From positions 32,727,449 to 32,791,448 of the forward strand of contig NC_079491.1 in assembly GCF_020520425.1 (NCBI RefSeq): 64,000 nucleotides of DNA, read 5' to 3'. The position numbers and the translations under genes are program-made. The notes beneath the pieces were generated by a model. It saw nothing but the letters and a program-made list of their open reading frames with translations, did no database searches and was not told where the DNA came from. Positions 4,658 through 42,779 of the stretch are shown one piece after another (the first letter of the stretch is position 1; each line of letters starts with the position of its first letter). The stretch is from Spinacia oleracea. Taxonomy: Eukaryota; Streptophyta; Magnoliopsida; Caryophyllales; Amaranthaceae.

Positions 4658-4666
4658 TAATAAGAA

Positions 4667-4777
4667 CGGATTTTTCATGAGATACCCCCAAGGTTTGACT
4701 TTATTCACCAAATACCCTCATAGTTTCAGGTATTCACCAAAAATCCATGAGGTTTTATTTTCTTGCATGAAATATCC
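4667..4777 (+). repeat. Left TIR of the MULE-like element
   Basis: This is the inverted counterpart of 42653-42762. The text contains three spaced ACCAAATACCC-like phrases. The 9-bp TSD copy TAATAAGAA lies directly to its left. Confidence 0.6.
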
Positions 4778-5181
4778 TTAACGAACCTTAATGACTTACG
4801 GCGTTAAGTTTTTGTTAGTGTGTCTTTACTATTCTACCCCTACTTCTGGCGAAGAGTCGCACATTTAGCCCCAACCTTTCTTCTTCCTTCTTCCCATGTT
4901 CTTCCCTCAAAAAAACCTTTCGAGTTTCTTCCATTTTCTCTCTTTCTCAAGAATCGCCATTTGTTATTCCAATCATTTTTCATTATTATTACGTCAACTC
5001 AAAATCAAACAATTGAACAATTGTATGAAGATTCTACAAATTAATTGCAATTATTCTATAATTCAACTCATAATTAAACAGTTTTGTTACACAATTTAAC
5101 ACATATCGTTGTACAATCTACTCTTTTCTCTCACCTGTATTCCAAAAAAGTACCAAAAAAACAAAGTTTGTTTGATTAGGA

Positions 5182-6578
5182 TGTTAGGTTATGATACATA
5201 TGAACAACATGAATCATGCGGAAAAACCTTAATGCCATGATACATATTAATTACACATAATCATATAATTAGTATAGGATGCATACACTTTGTAGCGTGC
5301 CCTCCCTAGTTGCGCCCGAACCGAACAAGAACAAGTCTTTAGGACTCCAAGTGTCGTCCCTCCGTAGAAAGTCCACAGCACGTCCGGATCCGCCTTAAGA
5401 TTGACCAACTAGAATCGCCCTTAAGGTACTACTTATTTTCGGCTAAATAGGGCAAGTGTTATGGCTGATTTTTCTACTTAAAAATCCTAGCTTTGAATAC
5501 TTGAAAACTCGTGTATAAATTTGTGAACCGCACATATTAATAGAGTCATGGAAAAGGATTTAGAATCCTATTAGAATACCAATTAGTTTAATTAGAATCC
5601 CTTTAGAACTCTATTAAATAAATTCTATCTACTAGGATTAGGATTTAATCATAGAACGAATTCCAATAGCTTTAGGATTCGTATCGCACACAACCGCACA
5701 CGAGCACGAGCACCGCACAGCCCGCGCAAGCCTCGCGGCCCACGCGAGCTGCACAGCTCGCAGCCTATGAGCTTTGCTCGCATCCCACGATGCGCGCGCG
5801 CCATGTTGGGCCTGGCCTTGTGCTGGGCCTGGCGTGGCCTTGCTGCGTTGTGTTGATGCGCATGGCTTGCTGGACGCAGGCCTGGCTTCGTGATGGGCCT
5901 TCGTCTAGCAAGTCTCGTCCGATGCTAATTCGTATGATGCGCTTCCGAATAAATTCCCGATTCTGGAATTCATTTCCGATACGAACAATATTTAACATTT
6001 CCGATTCCGGAATTAATTTCCGTTTCGAACAAATATTTAATATTTCCGTTTCCGGAATTATTTTTCCGATTCCGATAATATTTCCGATTCTGACAATATT
6101 TCCGTTTCCGGCAATATTTCCGATTCCGGCAATATTTCCATTTCCGATAATATTTTCCGATACGTACCATGTTTCCGTTTCCGGAAACATCTACGACTTG
6201 GATAATATTTATATTTCCGATAAGATCCATATTTTCGTTTCCGGCAATATCATCGTTTCCGGAGTATTCATTTACTTGCCTTTGACGATCTTAGCTCCCA
6301 CTAAAACCAAGGTCCGTCGATTCTGAATATCCATAGATGGAGTATTTAATGCCATTAAATACTTGATCCGTTTACGTACTATTTGTGTGACCCTACGGGT
6401 TCAGTCAAGAGTAAGTTGTGGATTAATATCATTAATTCCACTTGAACTGAAGCGGCCTCTAGCTAGGCATTCAGCTCACTTGATGTCACTGAATTATTAA
6501 CTTGTTAATTAATACTGAACAGCATTTATTAGACTTAACATTAAATGCATACTTGGACCAAGGGAATTATTTCCTTCA
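5182..6578 (-). repeat. 3' LTR of copia A
   Basis: It is 1,397 bp and starts TG and ends CA. It contains a GC-rich block (about 5695-5900) followed by a minisatellite of TTTCCGATTCCGG-type units (about 5945-6245). Related LTRs of copia D (30819-32171 and 39606-40958) have the same layout but are 44 bp shorter. The long ORFs over the minisatellite translate to Gly-Asn-Ile repeats and are artefacts. Confidence 0.8.
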
Positions 6579-6606
6579 GTCTCCCACTTGTCCTTAGGGA
6601 CAAGTG
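6579..6606 (-). other. Polypurine tract with adjoining hairpin (copia A)
   Basis: Directly next to the LTR, the minus strand reads GGGAGAC against the LTR end, a typical PPT. It is preceded by a perfect 9-bp stem (CACTTGTCC / GGACAAGTG) with a 4-nt loop at 6585-6606. The same hairpin sits at 32178-32199 in copia D. Confidence 0.65.
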
Positions 6607-7319
6607 TGCATTTCATAATTCCTTTGTCGCTCGATGCTTGCTCTTGAACATAAGGTAAGAGTTGTCATCCTTATTATGTCCAGAGGTGTTTCTCGGTTTC
6701 AGAGTTCAACTGATCAAATAAACAGATAATCATAGCCTATGAGTTATCTGAGCACAGCCATGCATTTTACAGTTTCTAGCTCTCCGAGTGGCCTTGTACA
6801 ACTTCAGCATCTCATCCCGATTTATGGGAGGACAATCCCAATCTTGCGATCTTGAGATTAGACTTCGTTTGATAGGTGATTACCTGTGCGTTGCCTTTAT
6901 AGCCTCCTTTTACGGTGCGACGGTTGACAACGTCAAAGTAAGCAGTTCTCAAACAAGTAATCTCAAATCACTCAGGTATTGAGGATTAGTGTCTAATAAT
7001 TTTAATGAAATTTACTTATGACAGATTTTCATCTCTTACAGTAAAGTTTTATAGGTCTGTCCGATACTAGTCTTCCCAAAGTAAGTATCTATGCAAATGA
7101 TTACGACATTGCCATGTCCACATAGTTCAAGAAACAGAACTACTAGTCATCTTGCATTCTAGTCGTCTAACGTTTTCTATGCGTCCATCTTTATAGAAAA
7201 CTCCGACCAGGGACCATTTTCAACTTTTGACATTCAAGTTCACTTGATAGACATTTCTTAGTCAAAGGACTGGTCCTGACAGTCTATCTTGAATATATCT
7301 TTAAATTGAAGGGACTCAT

Positions 7320-7812
7320 TGTTTTGGACAAATTCTACCTACGGTCGAATCCGTCGGAGGGAAGGGGTGCTAACAATCCGAATAAGCAAGATAATATAAA
7401 GATGATAAGAACAAGGATATGAAACTCTTACAGAAAAAGGGGGAGATGAGTAGTTTATTAGATGAAGTGTGAATGTGTATGAATCCGTCTCTACAATGAA
7501 CAAATAACATGCTATTTATACATGAGTAATTCAATTGCAATCATAAAAACCATCATTAAACCAAGGAGTTATTGCATGTAACCCCCTAGCCTTAATGATT
7601 GTAACATCCCCTTGATTTCAGCCTTGCATTAAATAACTGTAACCGCCCATTGATTTAACCATTGCTTCCAATGTTTGTAACCGCTAATTTACTTTAGCCG
7701 TTTTCCTTGATCAATGCCCATAGCTTTTATTACTGTCTTGATGGTTGTCACATGACCCTTTGAATGGGTCTCCCTTGCCACGTCACGGGGACGTTATTTT
7801 ACCACCCAAACA
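7320..7812 (-). repeat. 3' LTR of element B
   Basis: It starts TGTTTTGGACAAATTC and ends CACCCAAACA. It is 493 bp against 473 bp in the other LTR, mainly because of one roughly 20-bp indel near 7635-7660. Just inside, the minus strand reads TTTGGGGACAAT, the polypurine tract. Confidence 0.8.
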
Positions 7813-8100
7813 ATTGTCCCCAAACCCATTTTCGAATTCTTCCGAGAAGCTCAAAGGAGAGAATGGGTTTAATCTTCAAAAAAGGAAGGAAAATAACTTC
7901 CCGACTCCTTGCCAACCGGTAAGATGTAATGATGACAATAAGAATGCCAACTGATCCTGAGAAAATGACAACATTAAAAGGTAAACGATTAGCGTTAGTA
8001 TAAAAATAAATAAGTAGAAGATATGGGGTGACGAGACTGAGTCGTCTATGGTTGGAGTTTTTGTAGGGGCCGGCAGGTCGTCCCGTTAGAGATTGGCGAG

Positions 8101-8914
8101 ATGAAGTCGTCGGTTGATGTTGCAACTCTGACTGACGACATGGAGGCGTTGCCTGCTGAAAATGCCGAGTTGAAGGCGTCGCTGGACAAGATTTAAGAAG
8201 AAAAATTGGGAGTGTCTCTCGACCTAAGCTCGTCACTCTGGTTTCACCTCGGAGGCCGCCAAAGGCTTCCACCGATTCTACGGTGACTGGGGAGACTGGA
8301 TCATCTCTGCCTGCCGAATTCAAGTTGTCGCCTCCAACTCGGAAGAGGAAGCTCACAGTGGAGTTCCCTGACGACTTCGGGTCGGTAGGTGCTCCACAAC
8401 ATTAGCTTTGGCTAGAAGTTGACCGCCTGTGGATGCTGGTCAGCCGAGAGCGTCAAGAGACCCTGTCCCCAGTTGTTGCAACTGTTGAGAGCGTCTCGGA
8501 TGCTTGGAAGGTATGTTTTACTTTAGTGCCTCAGCTTTTATTAATGTATGTCGTCTTTATGTCGTCGTATGGTGACTGATATGCCTTCTTCTTTCTTCTT
8601 CTCTCTTTTTGTTGTCAACATAGGCCCTGCAATCTGCTTTGGCTACTCGCCATCATGTCATAACAATAGAAGATCAGTTAGTGAAAATGAAGAGTGACAT
8701 GAAAAAAAAGCTAAGCAGGAGGTCGATCGACTTGGTGGCGTGGCCAAGGAGGCGACGACCAACGCCGAGACGCTGGAGGCGGAGTAGGCAAAGGGTGCTG
8801 CTGAGATTGCTGCGTTGAACGCCGAGAAGGAGGCGCTGGCTGCTGAGGTTGACGAGCTGAAGACGTCTCTTACCAAAGTCAAGGCGAGGATTTTCGAGTG
8901 TGCTGGTTACTACA
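8101..8914 (+). pseudogene. Antisense ORF of Tat element, 5' part (spliced, coiled coil), interrupted
   Basis: The plus strand, opposite to pol, holds a gene-like segment between the integrase remnant and the 3' LTR of B. Readable pieces are acidic and Ala/Glu/Lys rich (AENAELKASLDK, then KEALAAEVDELKTSLTKVKA), typical of a coiled coil. A GT-AG intron is visible: the exon ends GCTTGGAAG before GTATGT at 8511 and resumes after ACATAG at 8623 with GCCCTGCAATC. In-frame stops (for example at the TAA ending 8101-8196, and a TAG near 8786) show decay. Element C interrupts it at 8910-8914, and the reading frame continues at 27206. The family resembles the plant gypsy-type transposon ORF (Transposase_28-like) known as an antisense ORF in Tat-type elements; that assignment is from memory. 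Confidence 0.55.
8511..8623 (+). other. Probable intron in the antisense ORF
   Basis: A 113-bp segment has a GTATGT donor and a pyrimidine-rich tract ending CAACATAG. Flanking sequence reads through as coiled-coil-like protein on both sides (..SVSDAWK and ALQSALATRHH..). Confidence 0.55.
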
Positions 8915-10371
8915 TGTGAGGGGGTCGAAAAAGCACGAGGCTAATGCGTGACCTCGTCCCTCGTGGGTGTGACGATTCTTTTTATTCAATCAAGTGTAAT
9001 TGGATTTCCTGTGAGTTTACACCCAATTGACTAGTAATATAGGAGTCGCCATTCAGTTTTTAACAACAATGAGAAAAACTGATAAAACCCGGTTATCGTG
9101 ACATAAAGGGAGTGCAATTATGTTTGACCACGACGGCCGTAGGTTCCCTTGTGATCCCTGGTGTGGGGATCTCTCAACAAACACCCGCAAGGTAGAGATT
9201 GAGGGTTCGGGGGACTGTAACTACCGAGAGGAGCACTTCGCTCGTCGATAACTCCAGAGGCAGGATATCCTTACAAGCTCAGCATAAATAATTGAAGGGA
9301 CATGCGTTAACTATTAAACTAATCTGAGTTGATTTTAGCAATATACAACATATAATACTAGATCGATCGCGATTATCTGATTTAGATAGCATTAAGGGAC
9401 CTAGCATGATAATCCAATTTCCCAAAAATATTATATTTCTTAGGCGTGGTAGAACAATCAGATTTAGTTAGTTTAACAGTTCATAAAAAGGGCGAGGAAA
9501 GCGATTAAATCATCAAAAAGGGACACATTACGACGCACCCATGAGAGGTGTGTCACGGTTCTCAGAAAACTAACCACTTTGACTTTTCTATTTCTCCTTT
9601 TTATTTAACGAATCTCAATTATGGGACAGGATACGTTCTGTTCGATTTATGGATCGATTGCGACAGAACGCGTGAACAGTTTCGCAGCGTGAGGCTTAGG
9701 CTAAGGGTTGGAGTCAATACTCGGAATATAATTGTGTGTTGGGTCCTTTTCACGTCGAATTTGGGGCTGTATTTATAGGGGAGAGTTCGTGGAAAGATAG
9801 AATTGCAGAGTTCTAATCCACAAAGAATTAGGAAAAAACACGTACCCAGGTATTTTCAGCGCCCAGGCCTGGGCGCCGAAGATTTCGGCGCCCAGAGCCA
9901 GGCGTTGAAAATAGGGTCTGGGCTGTTTTCTTAGTCAAATTCGGATTCCTGAAATCCGTAGTGTTTGAGACTTAATCGAGTCTTTTAGTGCGTATCAATT
10001 TCATGACGGAATGCGTCTGGGCCCGTTACGAACTCTAGGCTCGTTAGGATTTTAATTAATACGTAACTCTTATTTCCGAATCATATTAGGAATAGGATTC
10101 TCGCAGTTTTCTATCTCATTTAGGATTTATGTTGGAGTGCAACACCTAATTCTGACAGGTTTCTATCTTTTATGACTTGCCACTTTTAGAAGCTACCCTT
10201 TACGGCAGTTACTATTTTTAGTAGGTTTCCCTAAATAGCAGGTTTCGGGTGAAATGAAAAGGGGAATTGAGATTCGTTTATTTTATAGGAGATGCGTTGT
10301 CAAGTGGAGATTTATGTTTTCATCATCGAACCTTTCCCTTTCGGGAATGGGGACAAAAGTAGGTGTCTACA
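8915..10371 (-). repeat. 3' LTR of element C
   Basis: It is 1,457 bp. It preserves the uninterrupted sequence AGAACGCGTGAACAG near 9666-9680, the site where CACTA-like element E entered the other LTR. It carries two overlapping palindromes at 9859-9893. Confidence 0.9.
9859..9893. promoter_or_regulatory. Overlapping perfect palindromes in LTR C
   Basis: GCGCCCAGGCCTGGGCGC (9859-9876) is a perfect 18-nt palindrome. GGGCGCCGAA-GAT-TTCGGCGCCC (9871-9893) is a perfect 10-bp stem with a 3-nt loop. They share 9871-9876, so only one hairpin can form at a time. The arrangement is identical at 26693-26727 in the other LTR, and degraded relatives occur in the internal region (about 12040-12090 and 13170-13195). 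Role unknown; possibly termination, packaging or RNA structure. Confidence 0.6.
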
Positions 10372-10895
10372 GTTAGCCCCCACTTTGACTGAGTCTCGGA
10401 GTAAGACGATGGTCAAAGTACTAGACGGAGTGCGTCACACAAGCCATGGTGTATGTGACCTGTTTTGCGAGGGTCTCACGAGCCCCCGAGTGATAACATT
10501 TGACTTAAGGGTCATCACTTGAAATGTCGACATATCCCTCACGTGTCATTGGGATTTGTCAACGGATAGTATAGAATACTCCCTCACTTTGTCATTGGAA
10601 GTATCTAAAGAGGCGTAGAAACTCCCTCACTTTGTCATTGGGAGTAGCTACAGATGTTTTCGAAATCAAAGCTATAAAGTGTAATTGGGCCTGGCCAAGC
10701 CCAATCACGAGGTAAAAATGTTTTTAAAGATTCTCATTTTCAGGGCTAGCTAAACGAGAAAACTCCCTTGTTTTTATGGGACGTAAAACGAAGGAAAATC
10801 CAGCACATCGCTCTTTTTTTGGAAAAAACGGAAAACCAATCCTTTTTAATTGTTTGGAAAAGGGAAAACCAGAAAAAGTTATCGCTGCAGCGACT

Positions 10896-11400
10896 AAGGA
10901 CCTGCGCGGTTAGTGGCGTAGACCCCGCCGGCTAAAGATGGCGAGCCTGTCCGCTAAGGGTGGACACCCCGTCTGATAGAAGTGGACGAATCTGTTTTGA
11001 AGTTCGTTTGCTTTTTTTTGAAAATAAGGACCTACGCGGCTTGTGATGTAGACCCCGCCGGCTAAAGATGGCGAACCTGTCCGCTAAGGGTGGACACCCC
11101 GTCCGATAGAAGTGAACGAATCTATTTTGAAATTTGTTCTTGTGTTTATTTTTGAAAATAAGGACCTACGTGGTTTGCGTCGTAGACCCCGCCGGCTGAA
11201 GATGGCGAGCCTATTTCTTTTTTTTTTTCTTTTTTTTTTTTTTTTAAAGATTCTATTTTTCGAAATCTGAGGACCTGCGCGGCTAGTGACGCAGACCCCG
11301 CCCGCTGAAGGTGGGCGAGCCCTATCCGCTAAGGGTGGACGTCCCGCTCGCTGGAGGTGAGCGAACCTGAATTCGTCTTTTTGATTTGGGATTCGCGTGC
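10896..11400. repeat. Tandem repeat of ~110-134 bp units in element C
   Basis: Four units start with AAGGACCTGCGCGG-like text, with CCT at about 10901, 11031, 11165 and 11274. Each unit carries GCAGACCCCGCCGGCT, GATGGCGA and, in most, CCGCTAAGGGTGGAC. Spacing is 130, 134 and 109 bp; the last gap is shortened around a T-rich stretch. A partial fifth unit may follow. Confidence 0.75.
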
Positions 11401-13204
11401 CGCGGTCTTGCCTGATTGAGGTGGACAAGTCCCTATTTCATTTTTTTCTTGTGATTTCTCTTGAGAATTTCTTTTCATTCATTCTTGCAGGAGCGAATTC
11501 TTTCGAGGGATGCTCGGATTTAGTTGCAACCTGAATGTGGGTTGACAACGTGCTTAGACGGACCATTGTCTTGTGGTCATCTTCTTTCATGGTTTTGAGC
11601 TATTCTTTATGGCTCAATTTTGCCATTACCTGGGTCCTTGATATATGTATAAGTATCAACGGCGACCTTTGTCTTGAGGTCGTAATCCGATTTTATCTTT
11701 TTTTTTAAGATTATCCAAACATGGGACTTCGTACAGCGTAGTCTGGGAAATCGTTTTAACCTTGCATACTCCTTTTTTTTGAGATATATTTTTTCTTTCG
11801 AGCCACCAAGTACTCGTGCTTGGCGGTCAGTTCTTGTCAAAGAGGTTCTTTGGGGATACGCATTTTGTAATGTCCTTGATTGTGTTTGGGATCGTGCTCG
11901 TAAGTGCGAGCGATCTTCGTAGTGGTGTGTTACTCTTGACAAAGTCGTGAGGTGCAACTTTCAGTAAGGAAATTGGCAAAAATGGATGCGGCAGGGCCCA
12001 ATAGAAATTAGGGCCTTTTTTGAGCCTGGGTTCATTTTCGGCGCTCTGGCCTGGGCGTCGAAATAATTCACGCCCAGGTGGGGCGTTGAAAGTGTTGTTT
12101 GGGCTGGTATTTTGATGACACAGTCGGCCTCTTGTTCATTCGTTTATTTCACTTGGAAGTTCTATGTATTCTCTTCTCTTTTGTTTTTTCTTTATTTTTA
12201 GAACGTGATGATTTTCTTGAGAAGCCGTAGCCGATTGATGGACTACGGTGCTTGTCGCTTTGGGGCGATTATTTTAAGGAACTGTTGCTCTTAAGGCGTA
12301 CAGTCATTGCGATAGTTGGGCGAGTCTATATGGCCCGAGGAACATACCTTGAGGCGTGAGACTTTGACCGCTCTTGTTGTTGTATATTTTTCCTTTTAAA
12401 CGCGTTCGTGAATGTTCGATACTTAGAATGATGATATGTACATGCGAACGAGCGTTCATAGAATGGCCGTTGTGTGCGGTTCCATTAATCACTTTGCTTG
12501 AATCATTTTTTTTTTTGAGCAATGACTGATTTCGAATTGTTTTCTTAGAAGCTTAGTAGGGTTCAGGCCTATTCACGAGGTGGGCTCAAGCATCGTGCCC
12601 TTTCGATCGTTCAAACATTTCCCTCGATATTTTTAATTTTGCTATGGTCATTTCGTAGCTTGGAGCCCCCAAGTATGCACATTGGGATGCTTCCTTTTGG
12701 CGTACGATTTTTGTAGGTTCTTTTGAAAAAGATGCCTTGGGGTTCCGCTCGTGTAGGTGCGAGCCATCCCTTCCGTGGTAGGTAATGTTTTGCTACCTTT
12801 AATCCTTAATGTAGAAGTTGTGTGGCTTGCATTTTGAATTTGGGCGATAAGTAGTCTTTGCCTCTTTTACACATGCTCTTTAGTGCAACATGCCTTACTC
12901 TCTTTTCTAGACTTGTACCGTGGGATGGTTGAACTTATGGTGCGACGTAGGCTTGTGTGGCCTAACAGCGTGTCTTAGAACATTCCTCCAGGTGTTGGGA
13001 TATCATTATTATTTTTTGCATTGGAGTACTTTATCACGCTTTGTTCAGGTGCTCGAACAAGTGTAGCACCTTCCGCGTGGGTGTGCACGGGTTATTACTT
13101 CGTTCGATGCGAGGATTCATAGGTATTTCTTTCTTATTTTTATATCTGGGCAAAACTTGGCTAGCAGAAAGATTCAGCGCCCAGGCTGGGGCGTTAAAGA
13201 TTCA

Positions 13205-13232
13205 CCACTGTGAGGGGGTCGAAAAAGCACGA
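13205..13232 (-). repeat. Stray copy of LTR C edge
   Basis: CCAC plus TGTGAGGGGGTCGAAAAAGC (and the next few bases) is repeated at 13431-13458, where it is the real LTR edge. The segment in between is about 226 bp. It looks like a template-switch or recombination scar inside the element's leader. Confidence 0.6.
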
Positions 13233-13434
13233 CATTTACAAGAGAAGTAGCAGGTCACTACTCGAACGTACCTCGCACTAAACGAGTCTGGTTCAAACTA
13301 TTCATGATCCATGTCACCATGAATGCATAAAGACGTATGCAAAGGATTATAGCACCAGGCCAACCCCGTAGCTACAATTGGGGGCTTGAGAAAAACACTC
13401 TAAAAATGCTCGAGATGATGATTTTTTTAACCAC

Positions 13435-14192
13435 TGTGAGGGGGTCGAAAAAGCACGAGGCTAATGCGTGACCTCGTCCCTCGTGGGTGTGACGATTCTT
13501 TTTATTCAATCAAGTGTAATTGGATTTCCTGTGAGTTTACACCCAATTGACTAGTAATATAGGAGTCACCATTCAATTTTTAACAACAATGAGAAAAACT
13601 GACAAAACCCGGTTATCGTGACATAAAGGGAGTGCAATTATGTTTGACCACGACGGCCGTAGGTTCCCTTGTGATCCCTGGTGTGGGGATCTCTCAACAT
13701 ACACCCGCAAGGTAGAGATTGAGGGTTCGGGGGACTGTAACTACCGAGAGGAGTACTTCGCTCGTCGATAACTCCAGAGGCAGGATATCCTTACTAGCTC
13801 AACATAAATAATTGAAGGGACATGCGTTAACTATTAAACTAATCTGAGTTGATTTTAGCAATATGCAACATATAATACTAGATCGATCACGATTATCTTA
13901 TTTAGATAGCATTAAGGGACCTAGCATGATAATCCAATTTCCCAAAAATATTATATTTCTTAGGCGTGGTAGAACAATCAGATTTAGTTAGTTTAACAGT
14001 TCATAAAAAGGGCGAGGAAAGCGATTAAATCATCGAAAAGGGACACATTACGACGCACCCTTGAGAGGTGCGTCACGGTTCTCAGAAAACTAACCACTTT
14101 GACTTTGCTATTTCTCCTTTTTATTTAACGAATCTCAATTATGGGATAGGATACGTTCTGTTCGATTTATGGATCGATTGCGACAGAACGCG
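13435..14192 (-). repeat. 5' LTR of element C, left piece
   Basis: This is the first 758 bp of the right-hand LTR, up to the GCG (14190-14192) that was duplicated when element E inserted. The rest of this LTR resumes at 26507. Confidence 0.85.
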
Positions 14193-14240
14193 CACTAGTG
14201 GAAAAAAACCCTGTTGAGGCGGGCTTTTGGGCCTTGTTGA

Positions 14241-17025
14241 TGTAACACCCCGACAATTCCCTTTTTCTAAAACAACCCTTTTATAAATATAACTATAGAG
14301 AATTATCAAGGCATTATCGCCCGTGTGAAAACGTACGGCTTATTCAGAATTTTGCAGCGGAAAACATAAAACTAACTTTTAGGTTCATAAATAATCGATT
14401 ACATACTAAGTCCAAAACCAATTAACGGAAATAAGGAAATACGAATAGTACGACAACTTTCAAATATAAGTTAACAACCCAAATCACTTAATAAAACAAA
14501 TATAACTACAAGCTCTCTAATCCCGATCCCAATGATGCATCATCTTCAAACCTGTAGATGGGCAACGCTTATTGATCCTTAGAGACTGCTCACCAAAGTT
14601 GGGTCATCACAGGATCAATAAGGCATAGCCATGATCAACACACACAAACAAAGCACGTAATCAGCAAAGCTGAGTACTACATACTAAAACAATAATAATC
14701 CTAACATGATACTATTAAACATAATTAAGGGCAGACAAAGCATGATAATCTAACGACCATACTTAACTAGACTAGGCTAGACTGGACTAGACTTTTATAA
14801 CAATAATATTATTTTAATTGAAATAGGCAATGGACCGAGTTTTCTAGCTAAGCGAGGTACGGGCGCGACTCCGTAACCTCAGTGACCTGCGATATCGAGG
14901 AACGTTTGACTGAAAATAGGACGCGGTGATCAATCCGGTCCGAATGAAAGGCCATGGGCTACCACCATGAACCCCAACTCCTGTTTGTCCGTCACTTTAG
15001 ACGTGCACAGTCTAAAGCTATTGCTACTCAGTTTCACTTTACATGATTTACAAATTGACACCCTGTTATGACTCAACAATCACATAAGGCATGCAACTCA
15101 CATTTATTTATAACTGTTTTTATCTTGGAATTGAGTAAGTGACCACAAAGGCATCAAACAAGACTCATTCCAATTAACTCCAATCTTTTCTTTAATACTG
15201 ATCAACCCCTGAATATGGGTATAAGGTTTCAACTTACTAAATAAGGTCCTCCGCCCTCATAAAGTAGTGAAAAGCTAAAAAGGGAACAACAATTAACTGA
15301 TCTGAATTATATACTAAATAATCTAGTGTTCCCAATCAAACATGTTTGCATCAATCTTCCATACTAACATGTTATAATCCTCAAAATGCAATAAAGGTTT
15401 AATATGTTCATCCAACAGTATCAAACATGCAATTTCAACCTGACTAAGTTCATCAACAACATCAACATAACCAAGTTCATCAATAATTCAACATGGTTTC
15501 AACAATTAGCACACATTCCAAGCACACAGGTATGTACGTACCTTGTGTAAACAAACTGCAAGACCACTTTAATAATTCAAAAGTCGCCTAAGGAGAATTC
15601 TCCGCCTAAAACAACCAACAAGGATTCACAATCAACTTCTAAACATTCACAACAATAACAAAGCATTCTAAATACATCCTAAACATATTTAGAACTTTCC
15701 CCAATATCAAAACTTGAGTATTTGATTTCTTAGCATCATAATTATTGAATTAGTGATTGAAATTCGTTGAAAATTCTTTGCAAACATCGTACTTTAAATT
15801 TCAAGCATATAAATTTGTTTAAAAACTTCCCCAACACCAAATTACCACGCTTAGAATATAAAAATAATAGTTTTAATCATTCCAAATCATTCTACCATGA
15901 TCCAACATCATTAAAAACTTAGAATTCCCGCTTTAACTAATTTAAATTCTCGTTTCAATCAATGTATGAAATCTGAAAATTAATAATTTAATCATAAAAT
16001 ATTAAAATCTGAAATAAGTAAATAAATCTTAAAAATCATAATTTTAATTCACTCCAACAATATTTAAATTAATACATATGATATAAAAAGATTAGCTTTG
16101 GGTTTTAAGAGTTAACCGACGAGAGAGGACGACGGTGGCAGGCGGTGAGGCGCGGCCGGAGGCGGCATCACTGCTCGGCGACAGCAAGGAGAGGGTGGCG
16201 CGACTCGGTTGCTGCTGCGCAAAAACCAAAACGAGCGAGGAGAGCAAGAGCGAAAAAGATCGTGAGAAGGGTAGCGAAGCTGCAAGAAACGAACGAAAGA
16301 GAAAGGAAGAAGAACGAAGGAGAAGAAGAAGGTTACCGTGCAGCTGGCGGTCGCGGCGGCGGTAGGTGGTCGGCGGCTGGGGCTGTGCGAGGTTCAAGCA
16401 TAATCACGTGAGGAGGGGTGAAAACGAAGAAAGAAGAACGAAAAGAAAAGGGGAACGAAAGAGAAAAGGAAGGACGACGGAGAAGAGCTTACCGGCTGTG
16501 ACGAGGACGGTGGAGGTCCGGCGGGTGTATGGTGGCTGGCGGCTGGGCAGAGAGTACCAAGGTTTGAGGGTTTGCTAGTTTACGTGAGTTTGAATGAGAG
16601 ATAGGTTTTGCTTCTTTTTTTTTTTTCTCTTTTGCGTTTTCATGTGAAGTTCAAATGGGGTTTTGGCTTTGTTTATTTTTTTATTTTTGTTTTACGTGAA
16701 TTAGAGTAAAGGGAGGGTTTGAGTTTTGGGTTTTAATATTGGGCTTTCCCAAGTGGGCTAGAATTAGGATTTAGCTTTTATGATTCGAATCCAAAACTGA
16801 ATAGGATCGTTTTCTAAATTCAATCAATTTTCGTAATTCAAATTCTTTTCTACTTAAAATTCTAAAATCATTTTCGATTTCGTAAATCGTTGAAAATATT
16901 AATATGTAATAAATAAATATATGTTAATTATATATTTATTTCCAAAATTCATAAATTCTTATTTAAATATATTAAATATACGGTAAAATATATAAATGAA
17001 ATGTATAAAATTACGGGGGATTACA
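14241..17025 (-). repeat. 3' LTR of gypsy F
   Basis: It starts TGTAACACCCCGAC and ends GGGGGATTACA. It contains a GC-rich, purine-biased block at about 16110-16570 that gives overlapping ORFs on both strands. Differences from the other LTR are scattered single bases. Confidence 0.9.
16092..16578. other. GC-rich ORF block inside LTR F
   Basis: In the element's sense (minus) there is a 101-codon frame (16092-16397) with a Leu/Ser-rich hydrophobic stretch. On plus there are overlapping frames up to 88 codons, rich in Arg/Glu/Lys. The block is duplicated at 23807-24293 in the other LTR. Composition differs sharply from the AT-rich rest of the LTR. Possibly the LTR promoter/leader or a captured gene fragment; I do not recognise a protein. 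Confidence 0.35.
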
Positions 17026-17040
17026 ATCTACCCCTCTTAA
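17026..17040 (-). other. Polypurine tract of gypsy F
   Basis: The minus strand reads TTAAGAGGGGTAGA immediately before the LTR edge at 17025. It fixes the element's direction as leftward, in agreement with gag on the minus strand. Confidence 0.75.
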
Positions 17041-28170: not shown

Positions 28171-28173
28171 ACT

Positions 28174-28510: not shown

Positions 28511-28571
28511 TGACTGAGAAGGTCTCTTTTGTGATGGTTGGATGCATGAGGTGTAAAATAGAAAAAATGGG

Positions 28572-32171: not shown

Positions 32172-32199
32172 GTCTCCCACTTGTCCTTAGGGACAAGTG
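32172..32199 (-). other. Polypurine tract and hairpin (copia D)
   Basis: It has the same arrangement as in copia A: a GGGAGAC tract at the LTR edge and the perfect CACTTGTCC / GGACAAGTG stem at 32178-32199. Confidence 0.65.
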
Positions 32200-34340
32200 T
32201 GCATTACTTAATTCCTTTGTCGCTCGATGCTTGCTCTTGAACATAAGGTAAGAGTTGTCATCCTTATTATGTCCAGAGGTGTTTCTCGGTTTCAGAGTTC
32301 AACTGATCAAATAAACAGGTAATCATAGCCTATGATTCATCCGAGCACGGCCATGCATTTTACAGTTTCTAGCTCTCCGAGTGGCCTTGTACAACTTTTA
32401 AGCATCTCATCCCGATTTATGGGAGGACAATCCCAATCTTGCGATCTTGAGATTAGACTTCGTTTGATAGGTGACTACCTGAGCGTTGCCTTTATAGCCT
32501 CCTTATACGGTGCGACGGTTGGTCAACGTCAAAGCAACCAGTTCTCAAACAAGTAATCTCAAATCACTCAAGTAATCTCAAATCACTCAAGTAATCTCAA
32601 CGTCTAATAATTTTAATGAAATTTACTTATGACAGATTTTCATCTCTTACAGTAAAGTTTTATAGGTCTGTCCGATACTACTCTTCCCAAAGTAAGTATC
32701 TATGCAAACGATTACGACATTGCCATGTCCACATAGTTCAAGAAACAGAACTACTAGTCATCTTGCATTCTAGTCGTCTAACGTTTTCTATGCGTCCATC
32801 TTTATAGAAAACTCCGACCAGGGACCATTTTCAACCTTTGACATTCAAGTTCACTTGATAGACATTTCTTAGTCACAGGACTGGTCCTGACAGTCTATCT
32901 TGAATATATCGTCAAATTTGAAGGGACTCATCATTTAATACTAAACCAAGATTAAATGGAATATGAAAATTTATTTCATATATGATAAATGTTCAACCCC
33001 AATGTTTTACAACCATGGGCCTCGAACCCATCTTTAAAACAATTCATGGAATTCAAAGCTATGCTTGATTTCCAATGCTACAATGTGAGTGTTGCTTCTC
33101 ACTTGTTGCATAGGTTTAGTTATCATGCTTTGCCAATCTTGATATCCTTTTCTCGAATGTTCTTCGAGATATGATGATAAGATCTTCTGAGTATGTTTGT
33201 GATCTAGTCTGTCCAGCGACAAGAGTGGTTCTACGCATTTTTCAATGAAGAATCATCAAGTCAGCAGACATGTGATCTACCTAAGTTCCATGAAGAACTC
33301 ATTAATACAAACAACTCTATTTTATTGCTTCTTAAGCAATAAGTACTTCTACTTCAACTGTTTAGGTTGCTAGTGATTCTTTGGTTGGATTTACTTATCC
33401 AAGCAGTTCACAGATATGTGGAAGACTTTCCAGCTGTATCTTAGAACATAGAAATTAATATTTAATTTCCCACGCAACAACTCATGGTCTCCAATCCATG
33501 TTGCCATTTCAAAACACGATGCTCTATAGCTCGTCCTTGCCAATGGTTAACTCCAAAGGGATCTTGATTGATCCTTTACCAGTGTTTATGCGTGTAGCAT
33601 CAATATTTAGCATATCTTTATTTCCTTGAATCAAGAACTAATCCTATGTACCTTTTCAAGTACCATAAGTTTTTCTTGATTTCATTCTAGTTGATTTTCA
33701 CTTAGATCAATAGAGATTGGTATATGTTCGTCATGCCTAAAGTCATACGATACGTTTTTGGCGATCCTCATATTATATCATACATGATAACTTCTTTTGC
33801 AGAATAATTCCCAATTGAATTCTATTCATGTAACTTTAGCTCATCTAGTTTCAGTAGATACTAAATCCAGCTAAATTCTTTGACATATAATATAGGTTAA
33901 GAATCTATTCAGATCCTTTGATGTTTAGCTTAGTAAATGCTTATACATAGTTCAAACATTCTTTACTTAGATTTATTCACATGGGTCGAATATCTCCAAT
34001 GGAGTCTTTCGTGTTTGATTTAGTAAATGCCATTACTTAATCCAAAACAATATCATAAGATCTTTGTAAATAGATCTTAATACCCAGTATGTACTAAGTT
34101 TTGCCTTGGTCCATCATTGATGAATAATTTCAAACCTAAGTCATTAGCATTTGAATGTTATTTCACAATAGAGAGATATGTGTGTGATACACATAGGACC
34201 AATTAAGTTTTTATGTACTCCCACTAAACTTCTTATATATCTATAAGAATCATGTACATTTTATGAAACTAAAATACTTATTAGCTTCACTAAAATACAA
34301 TTCCAATTCCCAATTGCTTGCTTAAATCTGTACTTAGATT

Positions 34341-34667
34341 TCATAAGCTAGCTTTCATTTTCAAGCATTTATTTGGATCCACAAATCCTATGACATACCA
34401 TGTACATAGTTTCTTCCAACATTTGATTGAGGAATACGTTTTGTCATCCAATTGCCATATGTACCAATATGCAATCATTGCTTGAATTATAGACTTAAGC
34501 ATTACGATTTTGCATGAGGTTTCAACACAATCCGCACCGTGAATTTGCTTGTAACCTTTAGCAACTAATCTAGCTTTGTGTGTGAACACAATTTCATGTT
34601 TGATGGTTTTTATTCTTAAAACAAACTTGCAACCAATCGGTGTGAAACTATTCTTGCAAATCAACAA
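34341..34667 (-). pseudogene. Copia reverse transcriptase remnant (element D)
   Basis: The 108-codon frame contains PIGCKFVLRIKTIKHE, YKARLVAKGYKQIHG in the slightly altered form HKARLVAKGYKQIHG, and WQLDDKTYSS (usual form WQMDVKTAFL), followed by a shifted GFVDPNKCLKMK. The order matches the N-terminal part of a Ty1/copia RT. The catalytic YVDD region is not in frame. Surrounding sequence has many stops. Confidence 0.75.
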
Positions 34668-35919
34668 AATTTCAATTTTGTCATCAAAACATTGAGTATG
34701 TTTTATGGCCTCTAACCATTTAAAACATTGAGTCTATATATGGCCTCTAACCATTTTAGGGAATCTAGGTTTCGTCATAGCTTTCTTACAAGTCACAAAC
34801 TTATTAATCTACATGATAATAGTTTGACTGCAAGTTGTAGGTTTCTTCACTATCTAATAGAAGAATCTCATAGTTTCATTGACCCGAACTCTATGTTTCT
34901 TCACTATCCAATAGAAGAATACCATAGTTCCAGTGACTTGAACTCTATGCCTACTTGAGTATAGAACATTAACAAATAGAATATCAATAGCCACTTGAAA
35001 GTCCTTTGAGTATTCTGTTCTCCTTGAAGCACTTGTAAAGTCTTCTAAGAGATGTCTATTCTTTAAAGCCACTTCTAAAGTCCTTAAAGAATAAGCTCGG
35101 ATTTTCTGAAGCACTTCGAAAAGCCTCCGGAATGTCCGTTTATGTTTGTTGTTCGCCTCGAAGACTTTCGAGGTCTATTTTCTCCCACTTGTCATTTTGG
35201 AAACGAATCTCCAAAAGGACATTATTTCGAGCAAACAAACATTATGTTCTCAAAAAATCGTGGTAGAAACAATACCCTTGTGTCTCATTTGAATAAATCA
35301 CAATGAAACATATATCTATACTTGGGCCCTAGTTTGTTGAATAACAAACACTAAGCTCCCACTGAGTTTAGGAACTCTTTAAATATATTATGAAAAGATA
35401 TTCTGAAATTACTTTTCAATAGCTTTGACGAATTTGGTTTAGTTTGGTGGTAGTTGAGCATTTTGTTTTAGAAATTATAGGAAAATTCTTTATGATTCAT
35501 CATTGATCGAATCAAGTACTAATTGACTTCGATCATTCCAACTTAGATATGCCATATCTTATGGAGCTAGATCGTGAAATTACATTACACAATCATTGAT
35601 GATCATATTTGGTCTCAAGTAATCATTAACATGATCTAACCTAGATCTTTATGATTTCTTGCCAAGTGGGACTTATACTTCTGAATCTTTGAACTAGCCA
35701 AACAGATTCAAACTTATATCACATTGAGTAAATAAACCTATATTCACTCAAACCTGTGTGAAATAATAAAGTCATAAAACCTTTCTTTAGCTTTGAACTC
35801 TATCGTCTAGGCGTTCTAACAATAGTTTATATCTTTTGTTACTTTCAACAAGTAAGACTAGCTTGTCTTGAATTGATCTAGAAATCAATGAACTTTCAAA
35901 AGTCCATCAAAATAGAGCT

Positions 35920-35990
35920 TTTGAATGTTAACTTGTTGATATGGTCTAAGCAACAATGCCAAAGATTAGTGGAAATCAAATCAAGGGGTT
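35920..35990 (-). pseudogene. Copia pre-integrase motif remnant (element D)
   Basis: The minus strand translates to ISTNLWHCCLDHINK, close to the pre-integrase LWH.RLGH motif upstream of copia integrase. It lies at the expected distance upstream of the RT remnant. Confidence 0.5.
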
Positions 35991-38389
35991 GATTTGAACC
36001 TAGTAAAGTTTTTATTGTTAAAGAGTTGTTTGTTTTAATCAAGCATATTGACTCAACCCGTAATTGACCATTTCATTCAAATAAACAAACAAACAAACAT
36101 TGTTTTTGTTTTTCTTGAATGTGAGTCTTTCTGTGTTTGAAAACAGAAATTTAGGTATGCTGATTATGGAACAAAATAGCCATTAAGTTCCAGCCTTTGA
36201 AAGGACTTAAAACAAACTAGATGACCCTACAACTAATGTAGCATTTCCATGCTTCATTTCCCACTTGTAGGCCATTAGTGTAGCCTAGCTTCCATTGTTT
36301 GAGTTATTATCGAAGTAAGAACCTCAAGCGGTATATGATACCAAGGAAGTTTGATTGCTAGGTCACTTTTCTTTAAACATAAACTTATAGGTATAAACGG
36401 AATCGTAAATTCCTTTCATTTGTTCCTTGTTTTCCTATTTCTTGTACCCTTTCTTATAGTCTTAAGAATTGAATTCTTTAGTGTTGACTTTTATACTTTG
36501 TTAGACATGTCCAATGTCACTCCAACAAGGCTCTTACCATTTAATTTATGTTGAATATTTTGTTTCAACTAGATGATCTTACCAGAAGCTTCTAAAGTTC
36601 TCTAAGCATCAATTTATTCGAATGTCTAGGGACTAGACTCATTCGAGAATTATATGGAAAAAGATTTTAGGTTGTTAACCATTGGTAAAGCTGAGCGTTT
36701 AAACTCAATGCTTTATGATCTCAAAACTACATTGTATTTTGAATTCACAAGCACCAATTGGTTTGTCATTCGATTTTGATACTCGAAAACAACCATAAAA
36801 GTCGCTATAAGAAACGTACATTTTAAATTGCTCACTTTCTCTCTTTTCCGTGAATCGTTCTTGGATTCACTGCCAATTGAGGAAATTTACTGTTACCTTT
36901 CTAAAAGGATTTACTGCAGTGCAAGATATTTAATTATAAACAATAATTAAAACATACATTGAAGCAGGCAAAGTCTAAACATTTATCATGAGAAATAACT
37001 TGAAAATTAAAGCAATCATGCAATTTAAACAAGTTATTGGAATTTTATTCGAATTTATTGTTCCTGCAGGTGTGAATAAAATGATTCCAAGACCCTAAAA
37101 TCCATTGAAGAATTAAGAACATTATGTATTTAGACTCAATTCTAAAATCTATTAGGTAAGAAAAAGCCTTTTGCTAATAGTCTAGAAACTACTCTTGGTT
37201 GATAGGTACGTCTAAGAACTTATTAGGTAAACCTGTCGATTTTGCCACGACATAAAAGGACTCCTTACTTATATCGTTGAGTTTCACCAAAACTAACATG
37301 TACTCACAATTATTTGTGTACCTTACCCCTTTAGGACCAATAAGTAACACCTCGCTGAGCGAAAACTATTACTAGATTGATGTAAAGGATATCCAAGCAA
37401 GTGTTTATTTTGGCATGGCACCTTTTAACTCAATTTTTAAGTTTGGAACTTAAGGCTCTTACTATGTTGGTTAGATTTTAAGTGAACTAAAATCCTTAAT
37501 CATGCAACATAATCAAGCCACAATCTCATGCATAATTAAGACATATTTAAAGCAATAAATAACTTAAAGCATGCATAAGATAAATGTGATCTAGTATGGC
37601 CTGACTTCATCTTGAAGCTTCAACTTCAAAGTCTATCTCGAAAATGGTAACTTCGTCTTGAATTTCACCGTGGGAGGCGCCATTTTCTTCAAATAGGATA
37701 AGCTATAATTAAACTAATTACAACTATTTGATGGTACGCAGACCATATTTGAATTGAAAAACAAATTTGGTGCTTTAGACCAATTACATTCAAATTAATG
37801 GTACGCAGACCATATTTTCTATCCTATTTGGGCCATACTAGTCACTCCATAACCTGCAAAACAGTACATATACAATATATACCATTCACCCATTCATTAT
37901 CATGAATGGCCCACATAGCTGGTTAGTAAAACACGTTATGCATCATATAAATATTTGCAGCAATTAATTAAGGGCACCAATAATCTACCAATTATTCAGT
38001 CCTTATTAATTCTAATCAAGTTTTTTAACCTTAAAGGATTTGTAGACCTAATCAAGAGTTTATGACTAAAAATGCTCCCACTTAAACCAATAAATTCATA
38101 TGCTTTACTAATTTTAAACATAAAAATGTATTTCTAGTCTAACCGGAAACATACAAATTTAATTAAAATTTAAAGCTCATATAAATTTATAATCGAATCC
38201 ATTAATTTAATTTATTTCAGTTGAATTAAACGAATTTAAATTAATTCAAGATTTAATTTTAGTAACATAATTAGTATAAATAAAATTTATAATAATTATA
38301 ATATTCAAAATTAAAATCCAAGAAAACAATTTAAATTACGAATTTTAAAATTAATTAAAATCGTTTCCGAACTGAAAATTAAAAATTAA

Positions 38390-38830
38390 ATTCAAAACGC
38401 ATCAATCGGGTCAAGACGAGGCCATGGGCTTGCGCCCATGCCTCGTCGAGTCCACGAGGCAGCATCGCCCCTCACGAGTGATCGCACAGCAAGGCACGAG
38501 CAGCTGCCACGCGCAAACGCAGCAAGCCGAGCCACGCTTGCGCGCAGCATCGCTCGCTGCTTCGTAGCGCAGCAGTTGCTTGGCGAGGTTGGGCGAGGCA
38601 GCGCTCGTTGCTGCGAGGCACCCCTCGCTACCCGCGCGCGCGCGCCTGCCTTACTCGCTCGCTTTGCTTCTTCGCCCATCCACCCATGCATCATCGCAGC
38701 ACTCGACGCAAGGCAGGGCTGCTGCCTTGCGCTCGCGTGCTACTCGCCTTGCTCGCTGCATTCGTATCGCATGGGCGACGAGCTCCCTTGCTCGTCGTCG
38801 CATGCCCGCACTATACAACACCCCTTAAGG
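38390..38830. other. GC-rich island in the leader of copia D
   Basis: About 440 bp of GCTCGC/GCACGAG-rich sequence in otherwise very AT-rich DNA, between the primer site and the pol remnants. It gives overlapping ORFs up to 151 codons on both strands without recognisable motifs. Similar GC-rich text occurs in the LTRs of A and D (5700-5900, 31330-31560, 40110-40330). Confidence 0.5.
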
Positions 38831-39605
38831 GTAACATGTAGCATACATTGCTTTGTGCGTGCAAGTTTTATGAGCGAATTGCATAAAAATTAAAACTTTT
38901 ATTTCCAAAATTAATGACAAATTAATAAATCATATTAATTTCATAATTTTAGGGCGAAAAATCGAAAATTTATTAATTAATTAATTTCCGATTAACATGG
39001 ATTCAAATCTAGGTCATAAAATTAAAATTTTAACATAAATTAACAATTTTTATGGTGGATTTTAATCATGGATACCTAATTAAATTATTAATTAATCATG
39101 AAAATCAAATCAATTCTAAATTATTCGAATTTCAACAAATTAATCATAATTACAAATTAGGTTGTATAATTAACAAGTCTAAGCATTCATAATTGTTAAA
39201 CATATACAGTAGGTCAATCAAAAACTCAAGATTTATCAACAAGAATCGCAAATACTTAATTTAACATCTTAAATTTACAAACTTTTGCGTACGAAAAACT
39301 AAAACCTCCGAAAAGTCATAGTTAGGCTTCGAATTTGGGAATTCTGGCTTCGGCCGAAAATTACTAGTTTTGTCAAAATTTTAGAATGCCTTTTACATGC
39401 GGAATTGACACAAAAATCACTCGATTTGGATGAGTAACGAAGAAACTGCCGAAAAACTGCGTACATATAATTAAATAAACGCAATTTGCAATTAATTAAC
39501 AATTACGAAAATTAATCACCCCTTTTAATTCCTTGCAAATTTGTAAAATTTAACCATGTTTATGCAATTTAGATTATGAAAATAATAAGAGGCTCGTGAT
39601 ACCAC

Positions 39606-40958
39606 TGTTAGGTTATGATTCATATGACAAAACATAAATCATGCGGAAAAACCATAAAGCCAGGAAAGCATATTATTTACACATAATCATTTAGCATAGT
39701 TTAGATGCATACACTTTGTTGCGTGCCCTCCCTAGCTGCGCCCGAACCGAACAAGAACAAGTCTTTAGGACTCCAAGTGCCGTCCCTCCGTAGATAGTCC
39801 ACAGCACGTCCGGATCCGCCTTAAGCTTGACCAACTAGAATCGCCCTTAAGGTTGCTTAGGTATTTCGGCCATTTTAGGTGCAAGTGTATGACTGATTTT
39901 TTCTTCAAAATCTTACCTTTAGAATACTTCAATTGTGTCTATAAATTATGACCCTAGGCTCCTATTTATAGAGGTATGGAAAAGGAATTATAATCCTACT
40001 AGGATTTGGATTTATTAATTAGAATCCAATTTGAACTCTAAATAATAAACTTAATCTATTAGGATTAAGATTTAATCATATATCGAATCCTGATAGCTTT
40101 AGGATTCGTATAGCACGCACACGAGCATCGCACGAGCACCGCACACTCGCGCAGGCCTTGCGGCCCACGCTGAGCGCACAGCGCTCGGCCCATGCTCGCT
40201 GCCTGTGTCCGCGCGCGCGCCCAAGGCCTTGGTTGGGCCTGGCCTTGCGCTGGGCCTGGTCGAGGCTTGGCGTGTGATGGTGATGCGTGTGGCTTGCTGG
40301 GCGATGGCCTGGCTTCGTGCTGGGCCTTCGTCTATCGAGCCTCGTCCGATGCTAATTCGTACGATACGCTTCCGATTAAATTGCCGATTCCGGAATTCAT
40401 TTCCGATACGAACAATATTTAATATTTCCGATTCCGGAATTAATTTCCGATTCCGATAACATTTCCGATTCTGACAATATTTCCGTTTCCGGCAATATTT
40501 CCGATTCCGGTAATATTTCCATTTCCGATAATATTTTCCGACACGTACCATGTTTCCGTTTCCGGCAACATCTACGACTTGGATAATATTTATATTTCCG
40601 ATACGATCCATATTTCCGTTTCCGGCAATATCATCGTTTCCGGAGTATTCATTTCTTGCTTGTGACGATCTTAGCTCCCACTGAAACCAAGATCCGTCGA
40701 TTCCGAATATCCATAGATGGAGTATTTAATGCCATTAAATACTTGATCCGTTTACGTACTATTTGTGTGACCCTACGGGTTTAGTCAAGAGTAAGCTGTG
40801 GATTAATATCATTAATTCCACTTGAACTGAAGCGGCCTCTAGCTAGGCATTCAGCTCACTTGATCTCACTGAATTATTAACTTGTTAATTAATACTGAAC
40901 CGCATTTATTAGACTTAATATTATATGCATACTTGGACCAAGGGCATTATTTCCTTCA
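39606..40958 (-). repeat. 5' LTR of copia D
   Basis: Same length as the left LTR, with scattered mismatches. To its left, GATACCAC on the plus strand is the complement of the initiator-Met-type primer site. Confidence 0.9.
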
Positions 40959-40963: not shown

Positions 40964-41150
40964 TGCTGCCACTGACTCGTACTTTGGTGACGACATCGTC
41001 TCGTCACATCTTCCTTCGACGTACACATGCTGCCACTGACTCGTACTTTGGTGATGACACGGTCTCGGCACATCTTTGATGACGACACGGTCTCGACACA
41101 TCTTTTGATGACAACACAGTCTCGACACATCTTTTGATGACGAGGTGGGT
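40964..41150. repeat. Tandem repeats in the leader of element B
   Basis: A roughly 64-bp unit (CATGCTGCCACTGACTCGTA...CTTCCTTCGACGTACA) occurs twice at 40964-41050. Three shorter copies of a roughly 30-bp unit (TTTGATGACGACACGGTCTC..) follow at 41069-41145. Related units at 30680-30818 lie on the other side of copia D. Confidence 0.65.
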
Positions 41151-41363
41151 TTGTACTCATATTGGGGAGTGGTGGCGATGGAGGTTGCGGATCCGATCTG
41201 CGATTGTAGGGCTTCATACTCCTTTGGAGGAGGCTAATGTGTTGCTCCATGGCCTTAGGACGACGAGTAACATCATTGGATCAGATTGGGAATGCGGACA
41301 TGGTGGAGAAGTGGGTTATTTTTAATGAACGGATGAGATTATCAGGCTATTCTTGATTGTCAT

Positions 41364-41856
41364 CCCCACGGTGGGCGCCAAATTGTTTTTGACAAATTCT
41401 ACCTACGTTCGAATCCGTCGGAGGGAGGGGGTGCTAACAATCCGAATAAGCAAGATAATATAAAGATGATAAGAACAAGGATATGAAACTCTTACAGAAA
41501 AAGGGGGAGATGAGTAGTTTATTATATGAAGTGTGAATGTATATGAATCCGTCTCTACAATGAACAAATAACATGCTATTTATACATGAGTAATTCAATT
41601 GCAATCATAAAAACCATCATTAAACCAAGGAGTTATTGCATGTAACCCCCTAGCCTTAATGATTGTAACATCCCCTTGATTTCAGCCTTGCATTAAATTT
41701 CACCATTGCTTCCAATGTTTGTAACCGCTAATTTACTTTAGCCGTTTTCCTTGATCAATGCCCATAGCTTTTATTACTGTCTTGATGGTTGTCATATGAC
41801 CCTTTGAATGGGTCTCCCTTGCCACGTCACGGGGACGTTATTTTACCGCCCAAACA
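41364..41856 (-). repeat. 5' LTR of element B with adjacent primer binding site
   Basis: The LTR is 41384-41856 (473 bp). The primer site TGGCGCCCACCGTGGGG on the minus strand covers 41364-41380, 3 nt from the LTR, as in Tat-type elements. Confidence 0.8.
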
Positions 41857-42325
41857 CTCATCATTTAATACTAAACCAAGATTAAATGGAATATGAAAAT
41901 ACATTTCATATATGATAAATGTTCAACCCGAATGTTTTACAACCATGGGCCTCAAACCCATCTTTAAAACAGTTCATGGAATTCAAAGCTATGCTTGATT
42001 TCCAGTGCTACAATGTGAGTGTTGCTTCTCACTTGTTGCATAGGTTTAGTTATCATGCTTTGCCAATCTTAATATCCTTTTCATCATCGAATGTTCTTCG
42101 AGATATGATGATAAGATCTTTTGAGTTTGTTTATTATGTGATCTAGTCTTTCTTACTTCGATAGTGGTTCTACGCATTTTGCAATGAAGAACCATCAAGT
42201 CAACAGACATGTGATCTACCCAAGTTCAGTGAAGAACTCTTTAACATAAACAACCCTGTTTTATTACTTCTTAGGCAATAAGTACTTTTACTTCAACTGT
42301 ATAGGTTGCTAGTGATGATTTGGTT

Positions 42326-42652
42326 GTGATTTTTTATTCGAATTGGAATCAATTGTTAGATTTTTCATAAGCTTGCTTCATTTAAGCATGGATTTTAATT
42401 GTATTTTGATCTAGTTGCATTGACATTTGATCGCATTGTTGCTAGGGGTTCCTAAATCTGGTTGTTTATTGTAAAAAATTGGACAAATTTTGTATTGAAC
42501 TTTTGTTGTCAAGTTAAATTGTGTGAAATATTGTATACCATAGGGGCATATGGTGAAAACATCAGAAACCACAGGGGTATCTGGTGAAATAAAGTTTATG
42601 AAATACATGGGTATCTGGTGAAATAAAGTTTATAACGGCTATTTAACGGCAG
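42326..42652. other. Remaining interior of the MULE-like element
   Basis: No gene. It includes two direct copies of GTATCTGGTGAAATAAAGTT (about 42577-42600 and 42611-42634) next to the right TIR. Confidence 0.4.
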
Positions 42653-42762
42653 GGATAAGTCATGCAAGAAAATGAAACCTCGGGGATATTTGGTGAACAC
42701 TTGAAACTATGAGGGTATTTGGTGAATAAGTCAAACATCGAGGGTATCTTATGGAAAATCCG
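42653..42762 (-). repeat. Right TIR of the MULE-like element
   Basis: Inverted match to 4667-4777, ending ATCCG before the TSD copy TAATAAAAA at 42763-42771. Confidence 0.6.
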
Positions 42763-42779
42763 TAATAAAAAAACTCCAG

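Follow-up and report, generated by a model that had tools for sequence, protein, structure and literature searches.

A 64,000-nucleotide stretch of the spinach (Spinacia oleracea) genome, located at C5:32727449-32791448 and referred to here as the window, contains a pile of transposable elements that can be read with high confidence as a nest of successive insertions. A Mutator-like element (MULE) holds a copia-type long terminal repeat (LTR) retrotransposon, A, which holds a Tat-type gypsy element, B; B holds both a non-coding LTR element, C, and a second copia element, D; C contains a CACTA element, E, and E contains a gypsy element, F. The seven elements and their target duplications fill window positions 4667-42762, with each base assigned once (38,096 of 38,096). 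The initial annotation, made from the letters alone, had proposed a six-level nested transposon stack with a readable order, and this is confirmed by the full partition, by the target duplications and by uninterrupted paralogous sites; the stack lies where it was placed (4658-42771), although that span takes in the target duplication of the MULE, the element itself being 4667-42762. Deep transposon nests are already known in plants, and the present locus is a well-resolved example of them.

Nested layers and their junctions

The anatomy was read from a self-comparison of the window (matches of at least 80 bases) together with reading of the junctions, and relatives and empty sites were sought in the window's own genome (894,210,420 bases in 242 contigs). 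With inserts included, the elements extend over 4667-42762 (MULE), 5182 to ~42326 (A), 7320-41856 (B), 8915-27205 (C), 30819-40958 (D), 14193-26503 (E) and 14241-24739 (F); without inserts they measure 951 (MULE remnant), 2,603 (A remnant), 6,096 (B), 5,977 (C), 10,140 (D), 1,807 (E) and 10,499 bases (F), to which the second target copies add 23. The five LTR elements (A, B, C, D and F) lie on the minus strand, as judged by protein matches for B, D and F, by similarity to D for A, and by eye for C (from the purine tract adjoining its left LTR); the MULE and E carry no strand assignment.

Perfect target duplications of 5 bp flank B (CTCAT/CTCAT, at 7315-7319 and 41857-41861), C (CTACA/CTACA, at 8910-8914 and 27206-27210), D (ACACA/ACACA) and F (GTTGA/GTTGA), and E is flanked by a perfect duplication of 3 bp (GCG/GCG). 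The MULE consists of a left part at 4667-5181 (terminal inverted repeat ~4667-4777, then interior) and a right part at 42327-42762 (terminal inverted repeat and ~30-bp subrepeats); self-comparison gives an inverted repeat of 112 bp at 87.5%, with its partner at 42653-42763. Its 9-bp target duplication (TAATAAGAA at 4658-4666, TAATAAAAA at 42763-42771) matches at 8 of 9 positions, a level reached by 3 of 8,281 9-mer pairs from the two 99-base flanks, the real pair included. MULE relatives are dispersed and have the same ends as the window copy, those with both ends measuring 0.5-1.7 kb, and a perfect 9-bp target duplication was found in all five distinct relatives having both ends in the fetched stretch (four need no end shift; the fifth, A9, is uninformative), while two pairings with inner repeats among the relatives matched at 5 and 6 of 9 positions.

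Uninterrupted counterparts of each of the six inner insertion sites occur in the genome (for A, on the left side only). In searches with joined flanks, where the best 40 candidate places were scored per query, those of B in A, of C in B and of E in C were each uninterrupted at 40 of 40 scored places, and those of D in B at 39 of 40, the remaining place being the window itself. The site of F in E is empty in two full-length copies of E (L050 and L051), and the site of A in the MULE is represented at its left junction by one MULE relative, L012, that runs on past 5181. The window also contains controls of its own: D spans the site of B in A, the left LTR of C spans the site of E, and a tandem repeat in B spans the site of D.

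The one element that is not bounded by insertion junctions on both sides is A, of which one LTR and 1.2 kb of interior remain (a 2.6-kb remnant). The surviving LTR, the 3' LTR on its own strand, lies at 5182-6578 and is followed by interior at 6579-7319; further interior right of B (41862-42326) ends in a deletion junction. A belongs to the same family as D (the LTR and 3' interior are common to both in self-comparison), and its pol region is missing. At the right junction homology to A runs to 42326 and homology to the MULE begins at 42324, so that the three bases TTG are common to both; among the matches listed, three start at 42324 (C6:96107262, C6:111026000 and C3:84997236). The MULE relative L010 measures 1,666 bp between its ends, with an estimated ~0.84 kb between the points matching the two arms of the window copy. 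The overlap at TTG, taken with this spacing, thus points to a deletion that removed the 5' LTR of A, most of its interior and ~0.8 kb of the MULE. The outer element, given initially as ~1 kb, therefore measured ~1.7-1.8 kb. As a separate observation, A (5182-7319) is 73-90% alike to D (30819-32931) over the first 800 LTR bases and 95-97% alike from ~5982, a shift that forms a sharp mosaic boundary inside the LTR.

The absence from A of one LTR and most of its interior, and the lack of a readable target duplication, would also be expected if the MULE had captured a copia fragment in the manner of a Pack-MULE and then moved with it, A never having inserted into the MULE. Such a capture is improbable, because the left boundary of A is an LTR terminus: at least 23 of the 42 matches listed start at query positions 619-623 (the junction lies at 623), all in the A part. 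The relative L012 continues as MULE past this boundary, the right junction looks like a deletion, and among the matches listed only the window itself spans the MULE and A together.

Still less probable than capture is that an assembly join between repeats produced part of the stack. F has LTRs of 2.8 kb at 99.8% identity, and the retroelement layers occur in many copies, which would favor such a join; however, matching target duplications of their own bound the inner elements, the base count is exact, and there is no N in the window. The probable source is the spinach Monoe-Viroflay assembly, for which the available part of PMC8668906 gives ~894.3 Mb with ~98.3% on six chromosomes, built from 118x PacBio continuous long reads with a contig N50 of ~23.8 Mb, and this too speaks against a join.

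Divergence and proposed history

LTR divergence was computed for the four elements that keep an LTR pair; A, E and the MULE have none and so receive no LTR-based age. The Kimura two-parameter distance is 0.0171 for B (standard error (SE) 0.0061; 8/473 differences and one 20-base gap with the exact left LTR end; before that end was set the gap runs were 20 and 2 bases, also with 8/473), 0.0160 for C (SE 0.0033; 23/1457), 0.0127 for D (SE 0.0031; 17/1353) and 0.0018 for F (SE 0.0008; 5/2784), the two halves of the LTR of C diverging by 2.0 and 1.2%. The values for B, C and D are statistically alike (Fisher p 0.49-0.83), and F lies below each of them (Fisher p 2.6e-7 to 1.2e-4). At r = 1.3e-8, a rate applied to spinach in the accessible text of PMC6337768, the estimated ages are ~0.66 (B), ~0.61 (C), ~0.49 (D) and ~0.07 (F) million years. 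The two closest full copies of E differ from it by 0.5 and 1.05%, between the values for C and F. Divergences had initially been estimated by eye and said to rise outward; the individual values hold up, the order among B, C and D is not separable, and only F stands apart. Inverted LTR divergence occurs in about a quarter of nested plant pairs according to the available part of PMC7251063; no age contradicting the nesting is found among B, C, D and F, but the power of this test is low.

Three points weigh against the order as read. All of the empty sites are paralogous, within one genome, and none is orthologous; the placement of A in the MULE draws on the left junction and a single relative, since the right boundary of A is no insertion boundary; and LTR divergence orders F against the rest, with B, C and D overlapping.

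In the insertion series that these data give, a non-autonomous MULE landed first, upstream of a peroxidase-like gene and ~360 bp from its probable start. The MULE then received copia A, and B entered the part of A that still remains. At some point a deletion at the 3-bp microhomology removed the 5' half of A and ~0.8 kb of the MULE. C and D entered B, E entered the right LTR of C, and finally F entered E.

Probable movement by the enzymes of relatives

It is strongly indicated that D and F multiplied after their enzymes broke, since dispersed copies carry the same ruined pol, and the stack probably arose in the main from elements mobilized in trans, by the enzymes of relatives. F has its LTRs at 14241-17025 and 21956-24739 and keeps a 484-codon open frame (19163-20614, minus strand) that contains gag and most of the protease domain (Pfam Retrotrans_gag 3.2e-12; RVP_2 1.1e-11 over profile positions 6-98 of 136). 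Behind it lies a wrecked pol (17360-19160, minus strand) that lacks a large portion of what longer relatives have there; its reverse transcriptase (RT) fragment (18532-18798) matches Ty3-G Gag-Pol (PDB 7q5b, 9.9e-13) and PDB 4ol8 (2.3e-13), which together with the gag and protease matches places F in Ty3/gypsy, and an integrase-like fragment gave no match in a PDB search. Scans of viral_contigs and genome_contigs for relatives of the F gag confirmed none. Over 3.6 kb of interior, three copies (L069, L070 and L073) match F at 99.61, 99.58 and 99.50% identity; they have target duplications of their own (CATAT, TGGTT and GGACT, respectively) and share the wrecked pol with F. Set against an aligned relative, the pol of F shows 9 stops over 362 compared codons, and the 490 compared codons ahead of it show none (Fisher p 0.0005, with 480 entered for the preceding codons); this count omits comparison windows beyond codon 900, where alignment is poor, and all windows together give 23 stops in 1,086 codons. 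The number of stops expected in the pol of F since its insertion is 0.04, against the 9 observed.

D, with LTRs at 30819-32171 and 39606-40958 and a decayed pol between them, gives a parallel picture. Its interior contains 177-204 stops per minus-strand frame, 34344-34733 matches RVT_2 weakly (2.1e-07, 31.2 bits against a cut-off of 31.6; Pfam), and 25 of the 26 stops in its RT frame are common to copy L081; 39 other scored relatives are 95-97% identical to D. That D and F arrived intact and fell into decay only later, as the lack of a complete pol in either today might suggest, is scarcely credible, since the lesions are common to dispersed copies, those of F with target duplications of their own, and the stops of F are far too many for its LTR divergence. 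For F, decay after insertion is refuted on the copies examined; for D, one other copy (L081) was read.

The MULE, C and E would likewise have moved in trans, because none of them has a long frame, and B as well, because its interior is short and incomplete. No frame longer than 78 codons lies wholly inside the 951-bp MULE remnant. The left piece of B (7320-8914) comprises the LTR at 7320-7812 and interior with remains of a plus-strand frame, the middle piece (27211-30818) an RT_RNaseH remnant (28986-29441) and a second RNase-H-like domain, RVT_3 (28575-28982), and the right piece (40964-41856) the other LTR (41384-41856). The two successive domains stand in adjacent frames (7.7e-12 and 2.9e-21, respectively; Pfam), and such a pair is a mark of the Tat lineage. 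Among the 8 longer frames in or overlapping B that were scanned, 2 matched Pfam, both as RNase H; a putative integrase remnant was seen by eye at 28301-28591. The sites of C and D lie 3.60 kb apart in the window. Of 21 copies of the B family with both sites found within 70 kb, 14 have an interval of 3.68-3.98 kb, and in the other 7 it is longer, 6.5 to 58 kb. On the plus strand, opposite the RNase H of B and toward its 3' LTR, lies a broken frame (8041-8913 and 27207-27455) interrupted by C. Its position is like that of the antisense extra frame of Grande, RIRE2 and Retand as described in the available part of PMC7264820; unlike theirs, the frame of B is broken, and the likeness noted is one of position.

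C comprises a left LTR (8915-10371), an interior (10372-13434) and the first part of a right LTR (13435-14192) that resumes beyond E at 26507-27205 (one target copy kept). It is 5,977 bp long, with an interior of 3,063 bp and no coding capacity; three interior frames (117, 117 and 94 codons) had no Pfam match, and the remaining, unscanned frames are all below 118 codons. These three were among 10 additional frames, drawn from C, B, D and F, none of which matched Pfam. The label LARD-like (large retrotransposon derivative) given to C initially fits its length and lack of coding, but a dispersed family of the same structure was not seen, as none of the 39 other scored relatives passes window position 13201 and 31 of them stop exactly there. 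Beside this stretch, ~197 bases of C (13229-13425, in the region 13205-13434) are inverted relative to the two relatives read (95.0 and 93.4%) and adjoin a further copy of the initial 24 bases of the LTR, possibly the product of a template switch during reverse transcription.

E begins at 14193-14240 (CACTAGTGG...) and resumes at 24745-26503, for a total of 1,807 bp without F. It is filed as CACTA by its ends only (CACT...AGTG with a 3-bp target duplication, GCG in the window and CCA in L051), and it appears to be non-autonomous, its longest listed stop-to-stop frame (unscanned against Pfam) being 111 codons. The full-length copies L050 and L051 are 99.5 and 98.95% identical to it, and five more distant full-length relatives measure 1.79-1.83 kb. 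Another copy (99%) lies in two complementary pieces ~13.7 kb apart (C4:49316846-49318255 and C4:49331998-49332355), as if it too had been split by an insertion.

Against construction by movement in trans it must be set that the interior of C differs from the 39 other scored relatives beyond 13201, so that C may be a unique derivative and not a member of a trans-moved family; that, of five F-like copies examined, three (F, L070 and L073) have the 484-codon gag frame open, whereas one stop interrupts it in L069 and it is broken in L072; and that the ratio of nonsynonymous to synonymous substitution rates (dN/dS) is 0.04-0.28 in gag windows of F (one undefined) and 0.12-0.35 in well-aligned pol, which gives no clear contrast. 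Selection keeping the gag of F after the death of pol was considered and dropped, since dN/dS in gag is not clearly lower than in pol. L072 belongs to an array with 8.2-kb spacing, and F-type LTR copies stand three to four in a row, at 7.26- or 8.2-kb spacing, at C5:45235466-45261061, C5:13018024-13035427 and C2:69862603-69878125; this regular spacing suggests tandem arrays of LTR elements.

Longer relatives of F with long open gag-pol frames exist in the genome. The first 1,000 LTR bases of F are 96-97% identical to theirs; of the aligned blocks of the interior, the longest is 78% identical and shorter ones are 78-92%. On the strength of the difference between LTR starts (96-97%) and interior (78%), F could tentatively be regarded as part of a long-lived parasite lineage in which gag is kept, pol is gone and recombination with a partner carrying gag-pol has renewed the LTRs, and, more broadly, the locus as a pile built wholly by trans-mobilized elements of several helper systems; this remains a doubtful extension.

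Neighboring genes, known systems and significance

Right of the nest lies a peroxidase-like gene (42772-45856; Pfam peroxidase 3.3e-16 in 45359-45856), whose probable start at ~43127, placed by eye, is ~356 bp from the target duplication of the MULE. It is followed by a PIP-type aquaporin in pieces (47461-48932, minus strand; Pfam MIP 2.3e-34 and 7.2e-17), for which the best PDB matches are 6qim (PIP2-4) and 1z98, the latter presumably a spinach protein. Tandem repeats are dense at 55430-56940, their periods including 22, 41, 47, 108, 195 and 479 bp, and an uninterrupted open frame of 1,126 codons at 60327-63704 (minus strand; RVT_1, zf-RVT, RVT_3) is like that of a long interspersed nuclear element (LINE). 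An Rfam scan of the window found nothing, nor did a tRNA scan run at the bacterial setting.

Nested LTR retrotransposons of maize intergenic regions were reportedly described by SanMiguel et al. in 1996 and 1998. As in those nests and in the surveys of nested plant LTR elements, as far as the available parts of PMC6911290 and PMC7251063 go, elements lie inside elements and the order given by nesting is checked by LTR divergence; unlike them, the present stack also has two DNA transposon layers (MULE and CACTA) and its parts add up to the last base. F resembles TR-GAG elements, as presented in the available part of PMC8704663, in that it keeps a gag frame without a working pol, has several transposed copies and has longer relatives with open gag-pol in the genome; it differs in retaining, besides gag, the greater part of a protease domain and recognizable remains of pol, and in being gypsy, the example described there deriving from ATCOPIA63.

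The stack as such changes nothing, nested transposons being standard in large plant genomes. What is worth keeping is the exact bookkeeping, the deletion that explains A, and an indication of build-up mainly by elements unable to move alone. With readable junctions and parts that add up to the last base, the locus offers a clean reference case. For B > C/D and C > E > F its nesting sets a relative time scale without recourse to LTR divergence, an advantage given that in about a quarter of nested pairs the divergence of the LTRs is inverted (PMC7251063, available part). The locus also links the growth of this gene-flanking region to non-autonomous elements, and F is a naturally occurring parasite that has kept gag, alongside longer relatives whose gag-pol frames are open.

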